Part shown: positions 33,500 to 42,929 of the stretch, piece by piece
Position numbering within the stretch: position 1 is the first letter of the stretch
How the letters are laid out: each line of letters begins with the position of its first letter
Source: Pseudoblastomonas marina
Lineage (GTDB): Bacteria > Pseudomonadota > Alphaproteobacteria > Sphingomonadales > Sphingomonadaceae
Assembly (NCBI RefSeq): GCF_014641655.1
Contig: NZ_BMID01000001.1
Location: 930,001 to 994,000 of the forward strand
Direction of reading: 5' to 3'
DNA: 64,000 nt
The notes under the pieces: model-generated
What the model was told of the DNA's origin: nothing
Databases searched by the model: none
What the model saw: the letters and a program-made list of their open reading frames with translations, nothing else
Translations under genes and position numbers: made by a program

Positions 33500-34627
33500 A
33501 TGAAAGCCACGATCGAACGCGCCACGCTTCTGCGGTGCCTCAGCCACGTCCAGTCGGTGGTCGAGCGGCGCAATACCATCCCGATCCTCGCCAACGTCCT
33601 GCTCGAAGCCTCGGGCGACGGCGCGATCAAGGTGACCGCGACCGACCTCGACCTGCAGGTGGTCGAAAGCCAGCAGGCCGTCTCGGTGGAGAGCCCCGGC
33701 GCGATCACCGTCTCGGCGCACCTGCTGTTCGACATCGCGCGTAAGCTGCCCGACGGCAGCCAGGTCAGCCTCGAAGCCGCCGACGGCCGAATGACGGTCA
33801 AGGCCGGGCGGAGCCGCTTCAAGCTGCCGACGCTGCCGCGCGACGATTTCCCGATCATCGCCGAAGGCGACCTGCCGACCAGCTTCGCGATGCCTGCGAA
33901 GACGCTCGCCGAACTGATCGACCGCACGCGTTTCGCGATCTCGACCGAAGAGACGCGCTACTACCTCAACGGTATCTTCTTCCACGTCGCCGACGATGAC
34001 GGCCCCGTGCTCAAGGCCGCCGCGACCGATGGCCATCGCCTCGCGCGCTTCACCCTCCCGCGCCCCGATGGCGCCGAGGGCATGCCCGACGTGATCGTCC
34101 CGCGAAAGGCGATCGGCGAACTGCGCAAGTTGCTAGAGGAATCGCTCGACGGCGATGTGCAGATCGACCTTTCGGCGAGCAAGGTGCGATTCTCGATGGG
34201 CGGAGAGGGCGGAACGATCCTCACCAGCAAGCTGATCGACGGGACCTTCCCCGATTACAGCCGCGTCATTCCGACCGGGAACGACAAGCTGCTCAAGATC
34301 GACCCGAAGACCTTCTACGCAGGCGTCGACCGCGTCGCGACCATCGCCACCGAGAAGACCCGCGCGGTCAAGATGGCGCTCGAAAACGACAAGGTCACGC
34401 TCTCGGTCACCAGCCCCGACAACGGCACCGCGGCAGAAGAAGTGCCCGCGAGCTATTCGAGCGAAGGCCTCGAGATTGGCTTCAACGCCAATTACCTCAA
34501 GGACATCCTCGGCCAAATCGACAGCGACAATGTCGAACTGCATCTCGCCGATCCTGGCGCGCCGACGCTGATCCGCAAGGACCAGGACAGCCCCGCGCTC
34601 TACGTCCTTATGCCGATGCGGGTGTAG
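33500..34627 (+). CDS. dnaN: DNA polymerase III beta sliding clamp
   Basis: This 375-residue clamp has the three beta-clamp domains in order: MKATIERATLLRCLSHVQSVVERR, SFAMPAKTLAELIDRTRFAI-type second domain and a third domain ending in GAPTLIRKDQDSPALYVLMPMRV, the last ten residues being the classic terminal strand. It tethers polymerase to DNA. The 143-bp gap from fabG has no clear terminator, so it may have its own promoter. It is convergent with phaZ. Confidence 0.97.
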   Translation: MKATIERATLLRCLSHVQSVVERRNTIPILANVLLEASGDGAIKVTATDLDLQVVESQQAVSVESPGAITVSAHLLFDIARKLPDGSQVSLEAADGRMTVKAGRSRFKLPTLPRDDFPIIAEGDLPTSFAMPAKTLAELIDRTRFAISTEETRYYLNGIFFHVADDDGPVLKAAATDGHRLARFTLPRPDGAEGMPDVIVPRKAIGELRKLLEESLDGDVQIDLSASKVRFSMGGEGGTILTSKLIDGTFPDYSRVIPTGNDKLLKIDPKTFYAGVDRVATIATEKTRAVKMALENDKVTLSVTSPDNGTAAEEVPASYSSEGLEIGFNANYLKDILGQIDSDNVELHLADPGAPTLIRKDQDSPALYVLMPMRV

Positions 34628-34654: not shown

Positions 34655-35503
34655 CTAGGCTGCCTCGGGCAGAGCCTCGCCTTCGTCGAGAAATGCCCTG
34701 ATTTCGGCGACCGCTTCCTCGCTGTGGGTCAGCAGGAAGAGGTGGCCGCCATCCTCGAATTCGACGAGTTTGGCATTCGGGATCAACCCCGCGAGGATCT
34801 TGCCGTTGGCAGGCACGACGATGCGATCGTCGCCGCCCATCATCACCAGCGTGTCCTTCTTCAGGAACGGCAGCGCGGGGGCGCTGGTCCAGCCGAGCAT
34901 GGCAATCAGCTGGTAGAGGTAACCGCGCGGGGAAGGGGGCTTGATCCGCCCGATGTGATCGCGCCTCGCGGTCGCCTTCGTGTCGCGCGTCATGCCGCCA
35001 TAGAGCGTGGCGAAATGCTCGTTCATGTAGTTCGGATCGACGTAGCGGCGCGGGTCGACCATCTTCGACAGCGCCGACCACTTGCCGGGCACCATCAGCA
35101 TGCCCGGGGTGGTCGCGGCAAGCACCAGCTTGCGCGTACGACCGCCGTGCTGGAGCGCGAAATGCTGCGCCATCGCGCCGCCCCAGGACACACCCATCAC
35201 ATCGACTTCCTCGTTGCCGAGCGAGTCGAGCAGCTGTGCCGCCGTCCAGCACATGGTGAAGGGATTGTAGGGCAGCACCGGCTCGGGCGATTCTCCCACC
35301 CCCGGCATGTCGAAAATGATGAAACCTCGCTCCGGCATGGCCTCGGCCAGCGGCGCGACCGCCTCGATATTGGCACCGATACCATTGAAGAACAGGATCG
35401 GCGGGTGGTCCGACGGTTCGTCGAGCCGCCAGTGCGCAACGCGCAACGTGCGACCGCCGACCTCTTCGAGCGACACGGTAGCGGAATTCATCGGATCGCC
35501 CAT
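34655..35503 (-). CDS. phaZ: PHA depolymerase (PhaZ, medium-chain-length type)
   Basis: This alpha/beta hydrolase (282 residues from the chosen ATG) matches Pseudomonas PhaZ in FFNGIGANIEAVAPL, FDMPGVGESPEPVLPY, the nucleophile elbow GVSWGGAMAQHFA, KLVLAATTPGMLMVPGK, PRRYVDP, LGWTS and the catalytic His in DGGHLFLLTHS. It degrades intracellular polyhydroxyalkanoate. I take the ATG at 35503, with AAAAGG upstream; an in-frame ATG at 35545 overlaps phaC and one at 35491 is also possible. It is downstream of phaC in the same transcript. Confidence 0.93.
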   Translation of the reverse strand: MGDPMNSATVSLEEVGGRTLRVAHWRLDEPSDHPPILFFNGIGANIEAVAPLAEAMPERGFIIFDMPGVGESPEPVLPYNPFTMCWTAAQLLDSLGNEEVDVMGVSWGGAMAQHFALQHGGRTRKLVLAATTPGMLMVPGKWSALSKMVDPRRYVDPNYMNEHFATLYGGMTRDTKATARRDHIGRIKPPSPRGYLYQLIAMLGWTSAPALPFLKKDTLVMMGGDDRIVVPANGKILAGLIPNAKLVEFEDGGHLFLLTHSEEAVAEIRAFLDEGEALPEAA

Positions 35504-35538
35504 GCAATCGGCCTTTTCATTGTGCGCCGCAACGTGTG

Positions 35539-37224
35539 TCAGCATGCCTCGCGCACGTAAAGCCCCGGGGCCGGATCGCTCGCCGGGTATTCCTTGCTTC
35601 CGACCTCCTTCGGTGCGTCGACAAGATCACCCGATCGCGCCTGCAGCCACTCCATCCAGAACGGCCACCAGCTACCCGCGACTTCTTCTGCGCCCTCGAT
35701 CCACTTCTCGGCCGTGGCGGGGAGCTTGCCCTTCTTTTTCTGGACGAAATACTTTGCCTTGGGATTTGTCGGCGGGTTGAGGATCGCCTGCATGTGACCC
35801 GACTGGCTGAGTACGTAGGTCACGTCCTTCGATCCGAACAGTTGCGTCGAGCGATAGGTCGCACGCCACGGGGTAATGTGGTCGGTCACCCCGCCGAGAA
35901 TGAAAAGGTCGCTCTTCACCTTCGAAAGGTCGACCTTGTGGTCGAGCATGGCGACCTCGCCCTTCTTCGTGAAGGCAAGCGTTTCATAGATGGTGAGGAA
36001 ATCGCCCATCAGGCTGGCCGATAGATTGGTCGCATCGGCATTCCAGTAGAGCACGTCGAAGGCTGGCGGGTCTTCGCCCAGCAGGTAGTTGTTGACGACG
36101 TAGTTCCAGATCAGGTCGTTGGGTCGCAGCCATGCGAAGCCGCGCGCAAGATCGTCGCCCTTGATCACGCCCGCCTTGTCCGCGCGGCGGCGGGCGAGGG
36201 CGAGCCCGTTCTCGCTGATAAGCGACCCGGCCTCGATATCGTTCTGCTTGGGATGCAGCACGCAGACCATCAGCGTCAGCGCGCCGAGCAAATTGTCCCC
36301 ATCGGCCGCCATCTTGCTCGCGAGCATCGCAGCAGTCTGTCCGCCCGAGCAGCCGGCCGAGACGTTGACCTTGTCCGACCCGGTGATTGCCGCGGTCACT
36401 TCCATCGCCTCGCGGCACGAGCGGACGTAATCGGCCATGTCCCAGCTGCCCTGTTCGGGGCTCGGGTTCTTCCAGCTGATGACGAAGGTCTGGATGCCGT
36501 TGTCGACGAGGTATTTCACCACCGACTTCTCGGGCGAGAGGTCGTTGATATACATCTTGTTGATCTGCGGCGGAATCGTGAGCGCCGGCACTTCGTGGAC
36601 CTTGTCGGTGCTCGGCGCGTAGTGGACCAGTTCGAACATCTCGGTCCGGTGGACGACCGCGCCGGGGCTGGTCGCGATGTTCCGGCCCAGTTCGAACGGG
36701 CGTTTGTCGACCTGGCTGACCATGCCCTTGTTCTCGGTCATGTCGGTGTAGGCGTTCTTCAAGCCCTTGATCAGGCTGAGCCCGCCGCTGTCGATCGCGC
36801 GCTTCTGCGCGGTCGGGTTGCCCGCCAGCGTGTTGGTCGGTGCGATCGAATCGATGATGATGTTGGAGATGAACCGCGCCCGGTCGCGTTCGAGTTCGTC
36901 GAGCTCGAGCTCGTCGAGCCACTCGGCCATCCCCTTCTGCACGGCAAGGTAATATTGCGCCCCGGCGCGCATGAACGGGTTGTACTGCCACGCCGGGTCC
37001 ATGAACCGCCGGTCCTTGGGGTGCGGGGCGAGTTCGGACTGGCCGGTCATGATCTTGACCATTTCCGAACCCATCGCCTGGCTGTGACGCATCAGCCGCG
37101 CAGGATCGGACGCCGTTTCGCGCAGCAATACCGCGACCGCGCCGAAGATATCCTCGCGCGTCAGGCCGATCAGCGGGCCGAGCGCCGAAGTGTGCTGTGC
37201 GGCTTCGTCTTCTAGGTCAGGCAT
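35539..37224 (-). CDS. phaC: Class II-like poly(3-hydroxyalkanoate) synthase
   Basis: This 561-residue synthase polymerises hydroxyacyl-CoA. The lipase-like box GCSGGQ contains nucleophile C292; D448 in VTDHITPW and H477 in SGHMQAILNPP complete the triad. Blocks such as LGPLIGL, DRRFMDPAWQYNP, APTNTLAGNP, PPQINKMYINDLSPEKS and FAWLRPNDLIWNY resemble Pseudomonas class II enzymes, which prefer C6-C14 monomers. The start is the ATG at 37224, overlapping the ferredoxin-reductase stop (TGATG). Substrate preference is inferred. Confidence 0.95.
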   Translation of the reverse strand: MPDLEDEAAQHTSALGPLIGLTREDIFGAVAVLLRETASDPARLMRHSQAMGSEMVKIMTGQSELAPHPKDRRFMDPAWQYNPFMRAGAQYYLAVQKGMAEWLDELELDELERDRARFISNIIIDSIAPTNTLAGNPTAQKRAIDSGGLSLIKGLKNAYTDMTENKGMVSQVDKRPFELGRNIATSPGAVVHRTEMFELVHYAPSTDKVHEVPALTIPPQINKMYINDLSPEKSVVKYLVDNGIQTFVISWKNPSPEQGSWDMADYVRSCREAMEVTAAITGSDKVNVSAGCSGGQTAAMLASKMAADGDNLLGALTLMVCVLHPKQNDIEAGSLISENGLALARRRADKAGVIKGDDLARGFAWLRPNDLIWNYVVNNYLLGEDPPAFDVLYWNADATNLSASLMGDFLTIYETLAFTKKGEVAMLDHKVDLSKVKSDLFILGGVTDHITPWRATYRSTQLFGSKDVTYVLSQSGHMQAILNPPTNPKAKYFVQKKKGKLPATAEKWIEGAEEVAGSWWPFWMEWLQARSGDLVDAPKEVGSKEYPASDPAPGLYVREAC

Positions 37225-38549
37225 CAATCCGCTCCCCTCGCGGCAATCATGGCGTCGATATCGACGAATTTCTCGCGCGGGCTGCCCTCGCGGGCAGCGG
37301 CATTCTCGGCATCTTCGATCCTTTTCCAGTCCTGGAAGGTGACGACGTCGAGCCCGCGTTCGGCGGCGAGTGCGTCGAACCCCTCGCGCCCCTTCTTGCC
37401 GCCCTTGCCCAGCGCGCCGCTGGCGATGTCGTCCTCGATCAGGTCGACGATACCGAAGCCATCGGGCTTGTTGGTTCCGATCGTGCCCGAGGGGCCGCGC
37501 TTGGCCCAGCCGACCGCATAGAGGCCGGGCAGGATCCGGCCCTCGTCATTGGCGAAGCGACCGGCGCGCTCGTCGAACGGCACGCCCTCGATCGGGGCGG
37601 TTCGGTATCCGATCGCGGTGAGCACGATCCCGCAGGGGATGGTATAGGTTTCGCCGGTACCGACGGCGCGGCCGGCCTCGACCTTGGTGCGCTCGACCTC
37701 GATGCCGGAAACCCTGCCCTCTTCGCCGATGATGGCTTTCGGGCTGGCGAAGAAATCGAATTCGATCTCGATCGTCTTGTCGGCGCGCTCGCTCTCCGGA
37801 ATGGCGGCGAAACTGCGGACATGCGCGACCGACTTGCGCAGTCCCGGTTCGAGCAGCGCGTCCTCTTCCCCGTCGGGCAGGTCGTCGGCATCGACCCGCG
37901 GCGTGGCGCGTTCAAGGAGCATGAGCTCGCCCAGTTCCTTGGGCGTCATCATGATCTGGTGCGGCCCGCGCCGACCGAGGATGACGATGCGGCGGATCGC
38001 GGAGCTCTCGAGCGCGTCGAGCGCGTGCAGCACGATGTCGCTGCCCTCGAATTCGGCGGTCGTCTTGGCGAGGATTCGCGCGATGTCGAGCGCGACATTG
38101 CCCATCCCGATGACCACCGCCGTCTCGCTCGAGAGGTCGGGGTCGAGCCCGGCGAACTGTGGATGGCCGTTGTACCAGCCGACGAATTGCGCGCTCCCGT
38201 GAACCCCGGCGAGATCGGCACCCTCGATCGAGAGCGTCCGGTCGTGCGGCGCGCCTGTCGCCAGCACGACCGCGTCGTAAAGCGATTGCAATTCGGCGAT
38301 CGAGACATCGCTGCCGATCGTGACGTTGCCTACGAACCGGACATGGTCGGTAAACGCGGTCTTTTCATAGCGTCGCGAGACGGCCTTGATCGATTGATGA
38401 TCGGGCGCGACCCCCGTCCGGATCAATCCGTAGGGCACCGGCAGGCTGTCGAACACATCGACCCGCACATCGCCGCCCCATTTCTTCTGCGCCGCCTCGG
38501 CCGTGTAATATCCCGCCGGGCCGGAGCCGATAACCGCGATATGCCGCAT
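37224..38549 (-). CDS. Ferredoxin-NADP reductase, adrenodoxin-reductase type (FprA-like)
   Basis: This 441-residue flavoprotein begins HIAVIGSGPAGYYTAEA (FAD), followed by PVPYGLIRTGVAPDH, the NADP motif VIGMGNVALDIARIL, VILGRRGPHQ and the C-terminal GWAKRGPSGTIGTNK, all diagnostic of adrenodoxin/FprA reductases. It moves electrons between NADPH and ferredoxin-type partners. I start at the ATG at 38549, because the FAD motif follows at once. It is translationally coupled to phaC; no ferredoxin gene is adjacent. Confidence 0.93.
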   Translation of the reverse strand: MRHIAVIGSGPAGYYTAEAAQKKWGGDVRVDVFDSLPVPYGLIRTGVAPDHQSIKAVSRRYEKTAFTDHVRFVGNVTIGSDVSIAELQSLYDAVVLATGAPHDRTLSIEGADLAGVHGSAQFVGWYNGHPQFAGLDPDLSSETAVVIGMGNVALDIARILAKTTAEFEGSDIVLHALDALESSAIRRIVILGRRGPHQIMMTPKELGELMLLERATPRVDADDLPDGEEDALLEPGLRKSVAHVRSFAAIPESERADKTIEIEFDFFASPKAIIGEEGRVSGIEVERTKVEAGRAVGTGETYTIPCGIVLTAIGYRTAPIEGVPFDERAGRFANDEGRILPGLYAVGWAKRGPSGTIGTNKPDGFGIVDLIEDDIASGALGKGGKKGREGFDALAAERGLDVVTFQDWKRIEDAENAAAREGSPREKFVDIDAMIAARGAD

Positions 38550-38761
38550 CGCCTCTCCTGTCTCTCCCGGTTTCTTAAGACCTCGACCGGGCTTGCGATC
38601 GAGGATGCCCGCCTCCGAACCCATTGGCAAGCAGGCGGCGCAGTTGGGCGAACCTAAAGCCGGAATTAACCATTATGTCATACCACCCCCTAAGCTCTCG
38701 CGCGCTACGCGTGTGCGGGGGAGTTGCGCACGGGGTCGATGCGCCGCGGAAGGGAGTCGTC

Positions 38762-40984
38762 TTGCTCGAAATATTGCGCAGGAATTCCGGCGGCGACTGG
38801 GGAAAGTATTCAGCTCTCCTCGACCCGCTGAGCCGCGAGGAAATCGCGCAAAGCGTCCTGCTGATGCGCGAGTACGAATCCAGCGGGCACGGCTGGTTCT
38901 GGTCGACCGACAGCCATGGCCGCATCACCTATATTTCGCCGCGTCTCGTCGCCCAGATAGGGTTCGAGGAAGGGCAGCTGATCGGGCGCACCCTCGGCCG
39001 GGTGTTCGTCGAGGATCGCGAGATCGAACGCGCCGAGGACGATGACGGCCGCGCCCGGGGGCTCAAGATCTACCTTGCAGGCCGCAAAGCGTTCTCGAAC
39101 ATCGTGATCCACACGCAATGCGGGAAGTTCGACCAGCGCTGGGCATTGAGCGGGCATCCCCAACGCGACAACGATGGTCGGTTTGCCGGTTATCGCGGGC
39201 ACGCGGTCGACGTGACCGAGCAATATCGTTCGGAATCCGAAGCTTCGCGTCTCGCCATGTTCGATTCGCTGACCGGACTTTCCAACCGCCATCGCCTGAC
39301 CAGCCAGCTCGATCGCGAAATGAAGGTTTGTGTCGCGGCCAAACGATCTTGCGCGGTGATGATGCTCGATCTCGACCGGTTCAAGGCGGTCAACGATACG
39401 CTCGGCCACCAGGCCGGCGACGAACTGCTCAAACAGGTCGCGCAGCGATTGCGCAATCTGATAAAGGACGAGTTCGAGCTCGGCCGGCTCGGGGGTGACG
39501 AGTTCCAGATCATCCTGCCCGATATCGACGATCGCGGTCGCCTCGCCGATCTCGGGCATTCGATTGTCACCCACCTCTCGCAACCCTATTCGGTCGACGG
39601 CAATCGCTGCGTCATCGGCGCATCGGTGGGCATCGCGGTGGCGCCCTATGACGGCATAACCAGTGAGGAACTGGTGCGCGGTGCCGACCTCGCGCTCTAC
39701 GCCGCCAAGGGCAGCGGGCGCGGGCAATTCCGCTTCTATTCGTCCGAGCTCCACGACAAGGCTCGCGAACGCAACGATATCGAGGAAGCGCTGCGCGATG
39801 CGCTCCAGAACGAGGAATTGTCGCTGCATTACCAGCCCTTCGTCCACCAGGAGAACGGCAAGGTGGCGGGCTACGAGGCGCTGATGCGGTGGCAGCATCC
39901 GAAGATGGGCTGGATCGAGCCGTCGAAGTTTATCCCGATCGCCGAAGAGACCAATCTGATCACCTCGCTGGGAGAGTGGGCGATCCGCCAGGCCTGCAGG
40001 GACGCGGCGAAGTGGCCGAACGACGTTTCGGTCGCGATCAATGTGTCGGCGGCACAGTTTCAGCAGGAGGGACTCGCCGCGATCATTGGCGGCGCGCTCG
40101 CCGCCTCCGCGATCGATCCGGCAAGACTCGAGATGGAAATCACCGAAAGCGTCTTCATCAGCGACATGGAGCGTACCGACAAGCTGTTCCGTGACCTGAA
40201 AAAGCTCGGGGTGCGGCTGTCGCTCGATGATTTCGGGACCGGCTTCTCCTCGCTCAGCTATCTCGGTCGCGCTCCTTTCGACAAGGTCAAGATCGACCGC
40301 AGTTTCGTGGTCGGCTCGACCGAAGAGGGGTCGCGCAATCCAGCGATCATTTCCGCGATCGTGAGCGTCGCTGGAGCGCTTGGCATGCGCACCACGGTCG
40401 AAGGCGTCGAGGCGCTCGACGAGCTGGCGTTGGTGCGCGAGAAGGGCGTCGACTACATCCAGGGCTATCTCTTCTCCAAGCCGCTGACGCAGGACAAGAT
40501 CCTCGAAAAGCAGGGATCTGGGGAATGGGTGCTCGAGGCCAAGGGGCCCTCGCGCAATCGCGCCCAGCGCTTGAGCGTGCTCCGCAAGATCGGCGTGATC
40601 CACGGCGATTACCGCTATGAGGTGCGCATGAGGAACCTCTCGCGAACCGGGGCAATGATCGAGGGGGTCTCCGACGTTCCGGTGGGCACGGAGCTGGTTC
40701 TAGACCTCGGCGAAGGCCAGCTCGCCGTGGCGACCGTGCGCCGATCGGAGGGGGACGTGCAGGGGGTCGAGTTCGAGACCGGCCTCGTCAATGACGGCGC
40801 CGACGGGTTGTGCACCCGCTTCCGGATCAGCCCCTATGCGCTCGCTGCCGCGGGCATGCCGCTCCAGGCGCTCCCGCCCGGTGCCTATCCGCTCGCCGAA
40901 AACGTCCCGGCGACGACCGAGTCCCGCCCGAGCTTCGAAACCCGCACCTTTGCCGACACGGCGACGAGGCGCGGGTCCGACTGA
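38762..40984 (+). CDS. PAS-GGDEF-EAL-PilZ cyclic-di-GMP protein
   Basis: This protein of 740 residues has a PAS domain (~45-160), a GGDEF domain (~165-325; intact LGGDEF), an EAL domain (~335-585; YEALMRW, MEITESVF, LDDFGTGFSS, KIDRSFV) and a C-terminal PilZ domain (~600-690; RNLSRTGAMIEG). It could make, break and bind cyclic-di-GMP. The usual I-site RxxD before GGDEF reads KDEF. I use the TTG at 38762, 5 nt after GGAAGGGAG; an ATG at 38675 would add 29 unconserved-looking residues. It is divergent from the fpr-phaC-phaZ operon. Confidence 0.93.
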   Translation: MLEILRRNSGGDWGKYSALLDPLSREEIAQSVLLMREYESSGHGWFWSTDSHGRITYISPRLVAQIGFEEGQLIGRTLGRVFVEDREIERAEDDDGRARGLKIYLAGRKAFSNIVIHTQCGKFDQRWALSGHPQRDNDGRFAGYRGHAVDVTEQYRSESEASRLAMFDSLTGLSNRHRLTSQLDREMKVCVAAKRSCAVMMLDLDRFKAVNDTLGHQAGDELLKQVAQRLRNLIKDEFELGRLGGDEFQIILPDIDDRGRLADLGHSIVTHLSQPYSVDGNRCVIGASVGIAVAPYDGITSEELVRGADLALYAAKGSGRGQFRFYSSELHDKARERNDIEEALRDALQNEELSLHYQPFVHQENGKVAGYEALMRWQHPKMGWIEPSKFIPIAEETNLITSLGEWAIRQACRDAAKWPNDVSVAINVSAAQFQQEGLAAIIGGALAASAIDPARLEMEITESVFISDMERTDKLFRDLKKLGVRLSLDDFGTGFSSLSYLGRAPFDKVKIDRSFVVGSTEEGSRNPAIISAIVSVAGALGMRTTVEGVEALDELALVREKGVDYIQGYLFSKPLTQDKILEKQGSGEWVLEAKGPSRNRAQRLSVLRKIGVIHGDYRYEVRMRNLSRTGAMIEGVSDVPVGTELVLDLGEGQLAVATVRRSEGDVQGVEFETGLVNDGADGLCTRFRISPYALAAAGMPLQALPPGAYPLAENVPATTESRPSFETRTFADTATRRGSD

Positions 40985-41093: not shown

Positions 41094-42929
41094 ATGACCG
41101 ACCTTTCCAAGATCCGCAATTTCAGCATCATCGCGCATATCGACCATGGCAAGTCCACGCTGGCGGACCGGCTGATCCAGGCGTGCGGCGGGCTGACCGA
41201 GCGCGAGATGTCCGAGCAAGTGCTTGATAACATGGACATCGAGAAGGAGCGCGGGATCACCATCAAGGCCCAGACCGTGCGCCTTTCCTACACCGCGAAG
41301 GACGGCGAGACCTACGAGCTCAACCTGATGGACACGCCCGGCCATGTCGACTTCGCCTACGAGGTCTCGCGCTCCCTCGCCGCCTGCGAAGGCGCGCTGC
41401 TGGTGGTCGACGCGGCCCAAGGCGTGGAAGCCCAGACCCTCGCCAACGTCTACCAGTCGATCGAGCACGACCACGAGATCGTCCCTGTCATCAACAAGAT
41501 CGACCTCCCCGCCGCCGAGCCCGAGCGCGTCGCCGAGGAGATCGAGGAAATCGTCGGCATCCAGGCGACCGGGCCTTGGGCTGAGGGCGGCGCCGTCCTC
41601 GCCAGCGCGAAATCCGGCCTCGGCGTCGAGGACGTGCTCGAGGCGCTGGTCGCGCGCATCCCCCCGCCGCAAGGCGATCGCGACGCGCCGCTCAAGGCCA
41701 GCCTCGTCGACAGCTGGTACGATCCCTATCTCGGCGTGGTCATCCTCGTCCGCGTGATCGACGGCGTCCTCAAGAAGGGCCTCAACGTCCGCTTCATGCA
41801 GGGCGGCACCCAGCACCTCGTCGACCGCGTCGGCTGCTTCCGGCCCAAGCGCACCGACCTCGCGGAGATCGGCCCCGGCGAGATCGGCTTCATCACCGCG
41901 CAGATCAAGGAGGTCGACCAGGCCCGCGTCGGCGACACGATCACCACGGTCAAGGGCGGGGCGGACAAGCCGCTGCCCGGCTATCGCGAGCCGCAGCCGG
42001 TGGTGTTCTGCGGGCTGTTCCCGGTCGACGCCGCCGATTTCGAGAAGCTGCGCGAAAGCATCGGCAAGCTGCGCCTCAACGATGCGAGCTTCACCTACGA
42101 GATGGAGAGCAGCGCGGCACTCGGCTTCGGCTTCCGCGCCGGCTTCCTCGGCCTGCTGCACCTCGAGATCATCCAGGAGCGGCTCTCCCGCGAATACGAT
42201 CTCGACCTCATCACGACCGCGCCCAGCGTCGTCTACCGCGTCCACCTCGGCAAGACGAAGAACGAGGACGCGAAGGTGATCGACATCCACAACCCCGCCG
42301 ACTGGCCCGACGTCAACCGCATCGACGCGATCGAGGAACCGTGGATCAAGGCGACGATCTACACGCCGGACGAATATCTCGGCCCGATCCTCAAGCTGTG
42401 CCAGGACCGCCGCGGCGTCCAGACCAACCTCACCTATGTCGGCGGCCGCGCGCAGGTGACCTACGAGCTCCCATTGAACGAGGTGGTGTTCGACTTCTAC
42501 GATAGGTTGAAGTCCATATCGCGCGGCTATGCCAGCTTCGATTACGAGCAGATCGGCCTGCGCGAAGGCGACCTCGTGAAGATGAACATCCTCGTCAATG
42601 CCGAGCCGGTCGACGCGCTCTCGCTGATCGTCCACCGCACCGTGGCGGAAGAACGCGGCCGCGGCATGTGCGAGCGCCTCAAGGACCTCATCCCCCGCCA
42701 CCTCTTCAAGATCCCGATCCAGGCCGCCATCGGCGGCAAGATCATCGCCCGAGAGACGATCGCCGCCCTGCGCAAGGACGTCACCGCCAAGTGCTACGGC
42801 GGCGACATCACGCGCAAGAAGAAGCTGCTGGAGAAGCAGAAGAAGGGCAAGGCGCGGATGCGGGAGTACGGGAACGTGTCGATTCCTCAGGAAGCCTTTA
42901 TTGCAGCGCTCCGAATGGGCGAGGAATAA
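41094..42929 (+). CDS. lepA: Elongation factor 4 (LepA)
   Basis: This 611-residue GTPase assists ribosome back-translocation/assembly. It has the G1 loop [10 protein letters not shown] (residues ~14-23), [22 protein letters not shown], followed by EF-G-like domains and the LepA-specific C-terminal region ([23 protein letters not shown]). Start ATG 41094. It stands alone, and the accessory cassette begins about 80 bp past its stop. Confidence 0.97.

Follow-up and report, generated by a model that had tools for sequence, protein, structure and literature searches.

Class II PHA synthases of proteobacteria are described as almost confined to Pseudomonas in the available part of one account (PMC8312272), while the accessible text of another considers, on partial sequences, that the Pseudomonas enzymes possibly derive from an alphaproteobacterial phaC (PMC5944434). 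A phaC-phaZ pair in an alphaproteobacterial genome raises the question of what kind of module it represents. The original prediction saw in it a Pseudomonas-type, medium-chain-length PHA module that had been acquired or retained. We favour, with moderate confidence, the reading that it is a vertically retained, intact pair belonging to an alphaproteobacterial class II sister lineage, whose polymer would most likely combine C4-C5 with C6-and-longer units. In the following, the window is the whole stretch of 64,000 nucleotides that was analysed.

Gene layout and the wider genome

The proposed phaC-phaZ pair is real and its limits had been correctly placed (Table 1). On the minus strand the order is the reductase ORF, then phaC, then phaZ, with a single phaC at the locus. 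The TGA of the reductase ORF and the ATG of phaC have one base in common (TGATG), an overlap that makes the reductase a probable operon partner of phaC. The phaZ ATG used here overlaps the phaC stop, while an alternative at 35503 would give a protein of 282 aa; the reductase ORF also has an alternative ATG (MRHIAV...) at 38549, located by counting on the translation. Coupled expression of the pair may be expected. A scan for promoters and terminators returned matches no more than chance would give, and composition is ordinary, phaC having a GC content of 62.8 % and the window as a whole 64.6 %. The names dnaN and lepA were given by recognition and are presumed, as is that of the GGDEF-EAL-type protein that adjoins the pair; one to three homologues of the latter lie between the pair and lepA in loci L064-L071, L090 and L091.

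Table 1. Features at the phaC-phaZ locus (window positions)
Feature	Position	Strand	Description
dnaN	33500..34627	plus	conserved neighbour, context only
phaZ	34655..35545	minus	mcl-PHA-depolymerase-like alpha/beta hydrolase, 296 aa from ATG at 35545
phaC	35539..37224	minus	class II-like PHA synthase, 561 aa; ATG at 37224, stop ends 35539
reductase ORF	37224..38630	minus	adrenodoxin reductase/FprA-type; opens with TTG at 38630
GGDEF-EAL-type protein (presumed)	38624-40984		adjoins the pair
lepA	41094..42929	plus	conserved neighbour, context only

Elsewhere in the genome lies a second PhaC (C1:2177803-2179281), class I by tree. It belongs to the same PF07167 family as the window PhaC and has the same triad but is only 36 % identical to it, carries Ala481, lacks PPQINK and has the sole Phasin_2 match of the genome about 0.5 kb away. 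The Erythrobacter-like host carries two synthases, an ordinary class I enzyme and the one that is paired with a predicted depolymerase. In the scheme that we propose, (R)-3-hydroxyacyl-CoA units, most likely of C4-C5 as well as of C6 and longer, would be added by the window PhaC to a chain attached to Cys292. PhaZ would hydrolyse granule polymer back to 3-hydroxy acids, presumably mobilising the polymer made by its partner, and the pair would operate alongside the class I PhaC, which is separate and has a phasin of its own. The three MaoC-domain genes of the genome are possible candidates for monomer supply. With one PhaD-like protein as query, a PhaD-like gene was not detected in the genome (E up to 0.001), and neither was a match to the phasin model TIGR01837 at the same limit. 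These absences are not proof, since only a single PhaD query was used and TIGR01837 is insensitive, giving 22-26 bits for genes beside phaC in one relative (G055) and passing its cut-off in none of 59 genomes. A cytochrome P450 search, asking whether the reductase might serve alkane oxidation, returned four matches, probably three genes. Of 18 own-family loci, 13 have the reductase close to the pair, either ahead of phaC or behind phaZ.

Class and descent of the synthase

The class II assignment had leaned on the blocks LGPLIGL, DRRFMDPAW, APTN, PPQINK and SPEKS. All are present in PhaC but they are not equally telling. PPQINK is diagnostic, as it occurs in 27 of 27 alphaproteobacterial class II-like rows and 15 of 15 pseudomonad-type rows but in none of 19 class I rows, class I synthases having PPWINK, PPWINR or PPSINK instead. 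DRRFxDPAW is present in class I as well, and APTN and SPEKS have near class I versions (SPTN, APSN, TPEKS). PPQINK, Gln481 and Leu484, the residues that mark class II here, are found in the window PhaC together with TDHITPW; it shares all four with Pseudomonas PhaC1 and PhaC2, with which it falls on one side of the tree as against class I. Alignment to a 559-aa pseudomonad-type PhaC1 row gives Cys292, Asp448 and His477 as its triad, and the fold is plain from sequence (best solved structure in the PDB matched over residues 61-558, E 4.8e-90).

Against the class II profile TIGR01839 (NCBIfam), PhaC scores 611 bits (E 1.4e-183, residues 6-559), short of the curated cut-off of 855.4. The score with class I TIGR01838 is 471.8 bits over residues 55-558 (cut-off 622.65) and with class III TIGR01836 99.8 bits (cut-off 365.3). 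PhaC also departs from class I in lying outside its clade and in having Gln481, not Ala481. That a class I synthase had been misread as class II is ruled out by the profile scores and by the split between the two classes in the tree.

This split, with 27 alphaproteobacterial class II-like and 15 pseudomonad-type rows on one side and 19 class I rows on the other, had a support of 100/100 in a first PhaC tree, which omitted loci repeating the same genes (L002-L016, L046-L060). It was recovered in two further trees after adding rows of family f71. The second tree took seven f71 loci, out of 10 that were read among 21 matching genomes, nine of the 19 class I rows, 10 of 80 named loci and six of seven further alphaproteobacterial loci; the third dropped L088, L216 and L222, which are long branches in the second, as well as L223, L224, L061 and L062. 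PhaC thus groups with class II and not with class I references, and at the level of sequence the class assignment withstands the phylogeny. A main alphaproteobacterial clade was found each time: 24 rows in the first tree (100/98), 27 in the second, with f71 and further alphas added (100/100), and 27 in the third, with seven rows removed (100/99). In the third tree the pseudomonad-type rows, the f71 rows and L079 lie outside this clade, L079 joining the other two weakly (81/77). The PhaZ tree contains the same 27-row clade (97/97). The alphaproteobacterial rows as a whole were not one clade in the second PhaC tree (0 % of bootstrap trees), and a constraint holding all 32 of them together was not rejected (p-AU 0.117). 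As to whether Pseudomonas took its synthases from the alphas or the reverse, the trees favour neither direction.

While the class II grouping is borne out by three trees, the epithet “Pseudomonas-type” is too strong, given an identity of 41–46 % to pseudomonad-type rows, a score below the cut-off and a separate alphaproteobacterial clade. The proper label for PhaC appears to be class II-like, of an alphaproteobacterial sister lineage.

Over 398 Pseudomonadota genomes, TIGR01839 scores fell into three tiers: more than 1020 bits, above the cut-off, in 13 genomes that all belong to a single family (f49); 601-692 bits in 15 genomes, all of the own class and including the own genome; and 472 bits or less in the remainder. 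We take f49 to be Pseudomonadaceae; two of its loci were read and have the order phaC-phaZ-phaC-PhaD. At E up to 1e-150, the model matched 21 of 200 genomes of f71 (538-771 bits). In a draw of 385 genomes of the own class it matched 12 at the same limit, among them two divergent alphas at 548-557 bits; none in either draw was above the cut-off. In a relatives search over 59 genomes, 14 had a class II-like copy 50-100 % identical to the window PhaC, the next matches being at 39 %. These are 13 of 35 own-family genomes (own genome counted) and one of 24 elsewhere in the order; a class II-like match was not found in the other 22 own-family genomes, some of which are incomplete. The copy of the same genus is 91 % identical. 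Among the best 80 of at least 592 named copies, the closest come from Erythrobacter, Qipengyuania, Altererythrobacter and Novosphingobium, and those further off from Caulobacter, Hyphomonadaceae, Aquidulcibacter, Phycosocius, Robiginitomaculum and Tepidicaulis; this ranking is by likeness to the window, so that distant groups had little chance to appear. In G008 (C1:903106-904597), the PhaC-like matches are fragmented and one fragment contains two in-frame TGA codons, which looks like a broken or mis-assembled phaC.

PhaZ and companion genes in related loci

PhaZ is, as claimed, of the same kind as the pseudomonad PhaZ: it scores 201 bits with TIGR02240 and 89.8 with the next hydrolase family, although the curated cut-off of 250.6 bits is missed. 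For comparison, a pseudomonad-type PhaZ (L078) reaches 618 bits, and among alphaproteobacterial relatives L079 passes the cut-off with 303 bits and L085, at 235, does not. The Ser, Asp and His triad does not vary among the 39 sequences compared, that of the window being one of them, and with this triad in the family positions and phaC next door PhaZ has the marks of a family member.

The pairing itself is conserved. Downstream of PhaC and in the same orientation, PhaZ is present in all 27 alphaproteobacterial loci (one with 2.5 kb between), in 79 of the 80 named loci (best 80 of at least 592), the exception L165 stopping at a contig end, in all 10 f71 loci read out of 21 matching genomes and in five of seven further alphaproteobacterial loci; these sets overlap in part. 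Three of the same best 80 named loci have 1.8-2.5 kb between the two genes. Gaps of this size are seen in L089 (G449), L127, L149 and L151, and the gap in L089 holds a 716-aa ORF. The two exceptions among the further loci, L223 and L224 (family f126), encode a PhaC that is class II-like but divergent, with Ser130 and Ala481, and phaZ was not found next to it. The address is conserved as well: 14 of 18 own-family loci have lepA or dnaN in the neighbourhood, which spans at most 20 kb. With regard to the alternative of “acquisition or retention”, retention fits this, and acquisition finds no support within the family.

In the Pseudomonas cluster, phaC1-phaZ-phaC2-phaD-phaF-phaI, a phaZ of the same family likewise follows phaC, but the window locus consists of phaC-phaZ only. 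Some relatives have more. A PhaD-like TetR gene stands beside phaC in six of 27 alphaproteobacterial loci, two of seven further ones and 17 of the 80 named loci (best 80 of at least 592), and in none of 10 f71 or 18 own-family loci. Across 124 loci, a pseudomonad-type PhaD query (E up to 1) found 25 ORFs, none of them further than 1.5 kb from phaC. Pseudomonad-type PhaF/I queries had all their matches at most 3.8 kb from phaC, and some of these were weak (E 1e-13 to 0.6). Relatives from Caulobacterales, Hyphomonadaceae and other groups have both a PhaD-like regulator and a phasin of the PhaF/I-like kind there. The phasin-like gene of L085 passes the Pfam Phasin model (42.1 bits, cut-off 28.8) but not TIGR01837 (37.2 bits, cut-off 94.7). 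In the titles and abstract openings listed from an open-access library, a phaC-phaZ-phaD-phasin cluster of alphaproteobacteria was not described.

FadD-like and MaoC-like genes directly precede phaC in L079, L080 (one genus) and L088, and a MaoC-like gene precedes it in nine of 10 f71 loci. In nine of the 10 f71 loci (L208-L217) the phaC match lies 0.5-0.6 kb from the phaZ match, enough to accommodate a small gene; L216 deviates, with 62 bp between the two and no MaoC match. Except for L216, these loci resemble the phaC2 cluster of Cupriavidus pinatubonensis JMP134 as described.

Substrate residues and rival readings

At positions 130, 325, 477, 481 and 484 the window PhaC has D, C, S, Q and L (Asp125, Cys321, Ser475, Gln479 and Leu482 in the numbering of the protein itself). 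Among named relatives (best 80 of at least 592), D130, Q481 and L484 are each found in 80 and S477 in 64, while position 325 is C in 67, N in seven, T in five and A in one. The corresponding counts in the 32 alphaproteobacterial rows of the second tree, 10 of which are named loci, are D 30, C 23, S 23, Q 30 and L 27; nine rows are without Cys325 and five have Val or Ile at 484 instead of Leu. Pseudomonad-type rows have S325, Q481 and L484 (15/15 each), class I rows A481 (19/19) and f71 rows Ile or Val at 484 (7/7). Asp130 is common elsewhere, in pseudomonad-type rows (11 of 15) as in class I rows (14 of 19), and therefore says little alone.

Judged by residues, Asp130 and Cys325 would point in the direction of a broad substrate range, and Gln481 and Leu484 in that of Pseudomonas, whose synthases have Ser325. 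Takase et al. reportedly showed in 2003 that an S325C mutation favours 3HB. In the open-access literature matched, in so far as its text was available, S325C was found for an unrelated protein only and not for a PHA synthase, where S325T is named instead; there, E130D, S325T, S477G and Q481K combined enable Pseudomonas PhaC1 to make a 3HB-lactate copolymer (PMC3815930). Since Asp130 and Cys325 are positions altered in Pseudomonas enzymes engineered for short monomers, their presence with Leu484 suggests a mixed short- and medium-chain product, a best guess and not a reading from the sequence.

PhaC might instead be class II-like by descent and make a short-chain polymer (C4-C5) only, so that “medium-chain” would mislead, a possibility that we regard as rather unlikely. 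It has a precedent in JMP134 PhaC2, a class II enzyme by tree that, according to the available part of the report, accepts 3HB-CoA and not 3HO-CoA (PMC4636328). Like the window PhaC it is found outside Pseudomonas, as the one phaC of its cluster and next to a class I paralogue; it is about 50 % identical to Pseudomonas enzymes, and its authors propose Ile484 as the cause of its short-chain habit (PMC4636328). Asp130 and a residue other than Ser at 325 also lie toward the engineered 3HB- and lactate-accepting mutants, and the genome gave no PhaD-like or TIGR01837 match. However, compared by description, the window enzyme differs from JMP134 PhaC2, and from the f71 rows, precisely in having Leu484 like the pseudomonad-type rows and like all of the best 80 named alphas (of at least 592), notwithstanding the five tree rows with Val or Ile, and some relatives pair phaC with FadD-like and MaoC-like genes. 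A relic, dispensable after loss of regulator and phasin while the class I enzyme does the work, appears improbable: the same missing matches and the 22 own-family genomes without a copy, some incomplete, would fit, but the frames are open, the triads conserved and the same-genus copy closely similar. That the host lineage recently took up a phaC-phaZ module from Pseudomonas by horizontal transfer is hardly credible. Patchy presence in the family and order would fit such a transfer, yet the distance from pseudomonad-type rows, the separate and supported clade common to the PhaC and PhaZ trees, the lepA or dnaN address, the ordinary GC content and the lack of a second phaC at the locus all argue against it.

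Vertical retention of an intact pair with a mixed product, which we prefer, has its own difficulties. Both TIGR01839 and TIGR02240 cut-offs are missed, the genome gave no match for PhaD or for PhaF/I through TIGR01837, and a class II synthase by phylogeny elsewhere makes short-chain polymer only, as available from its report (PMC4636328). Another alphaproteobacterium, Caenibius tardaugens, is reported to make PHBV from steroids, and its three PhaC were called class I-like. Moreover, the divergent L223 and L224 have Ala481 and no PhaZ, and neither Leu484 nor Cys325 is universal.

On a wider view, which we put forward tentatively and hold to be less probable than the retained pair itself, alphaproteobacteria may possess an old mcl-PHA branch of their own (phaC-phaZ with PhaD-like and PhaF/I-like genes), built on a naturally broad Asp130/Cys325 synthase making mixed copolymers; the Pseudomonas cluster would then have branched off from a wider module, and sphingomonads like this host would have lost regulator and phasin. 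The class II module seems to extend beyond Pseudomonas, given a distinct lineage that has PhaD-like and phasin-like genes of its own. This lineage also provides natural sequences whose substrate-determining residues differ readably, and plastics that combine short and medium monomers in a copolymer have a practical interest. The curated class II model TIGR01839 accepted none of the non-f49 proteins scored, so that surveys relying on it would under-count this lineage.
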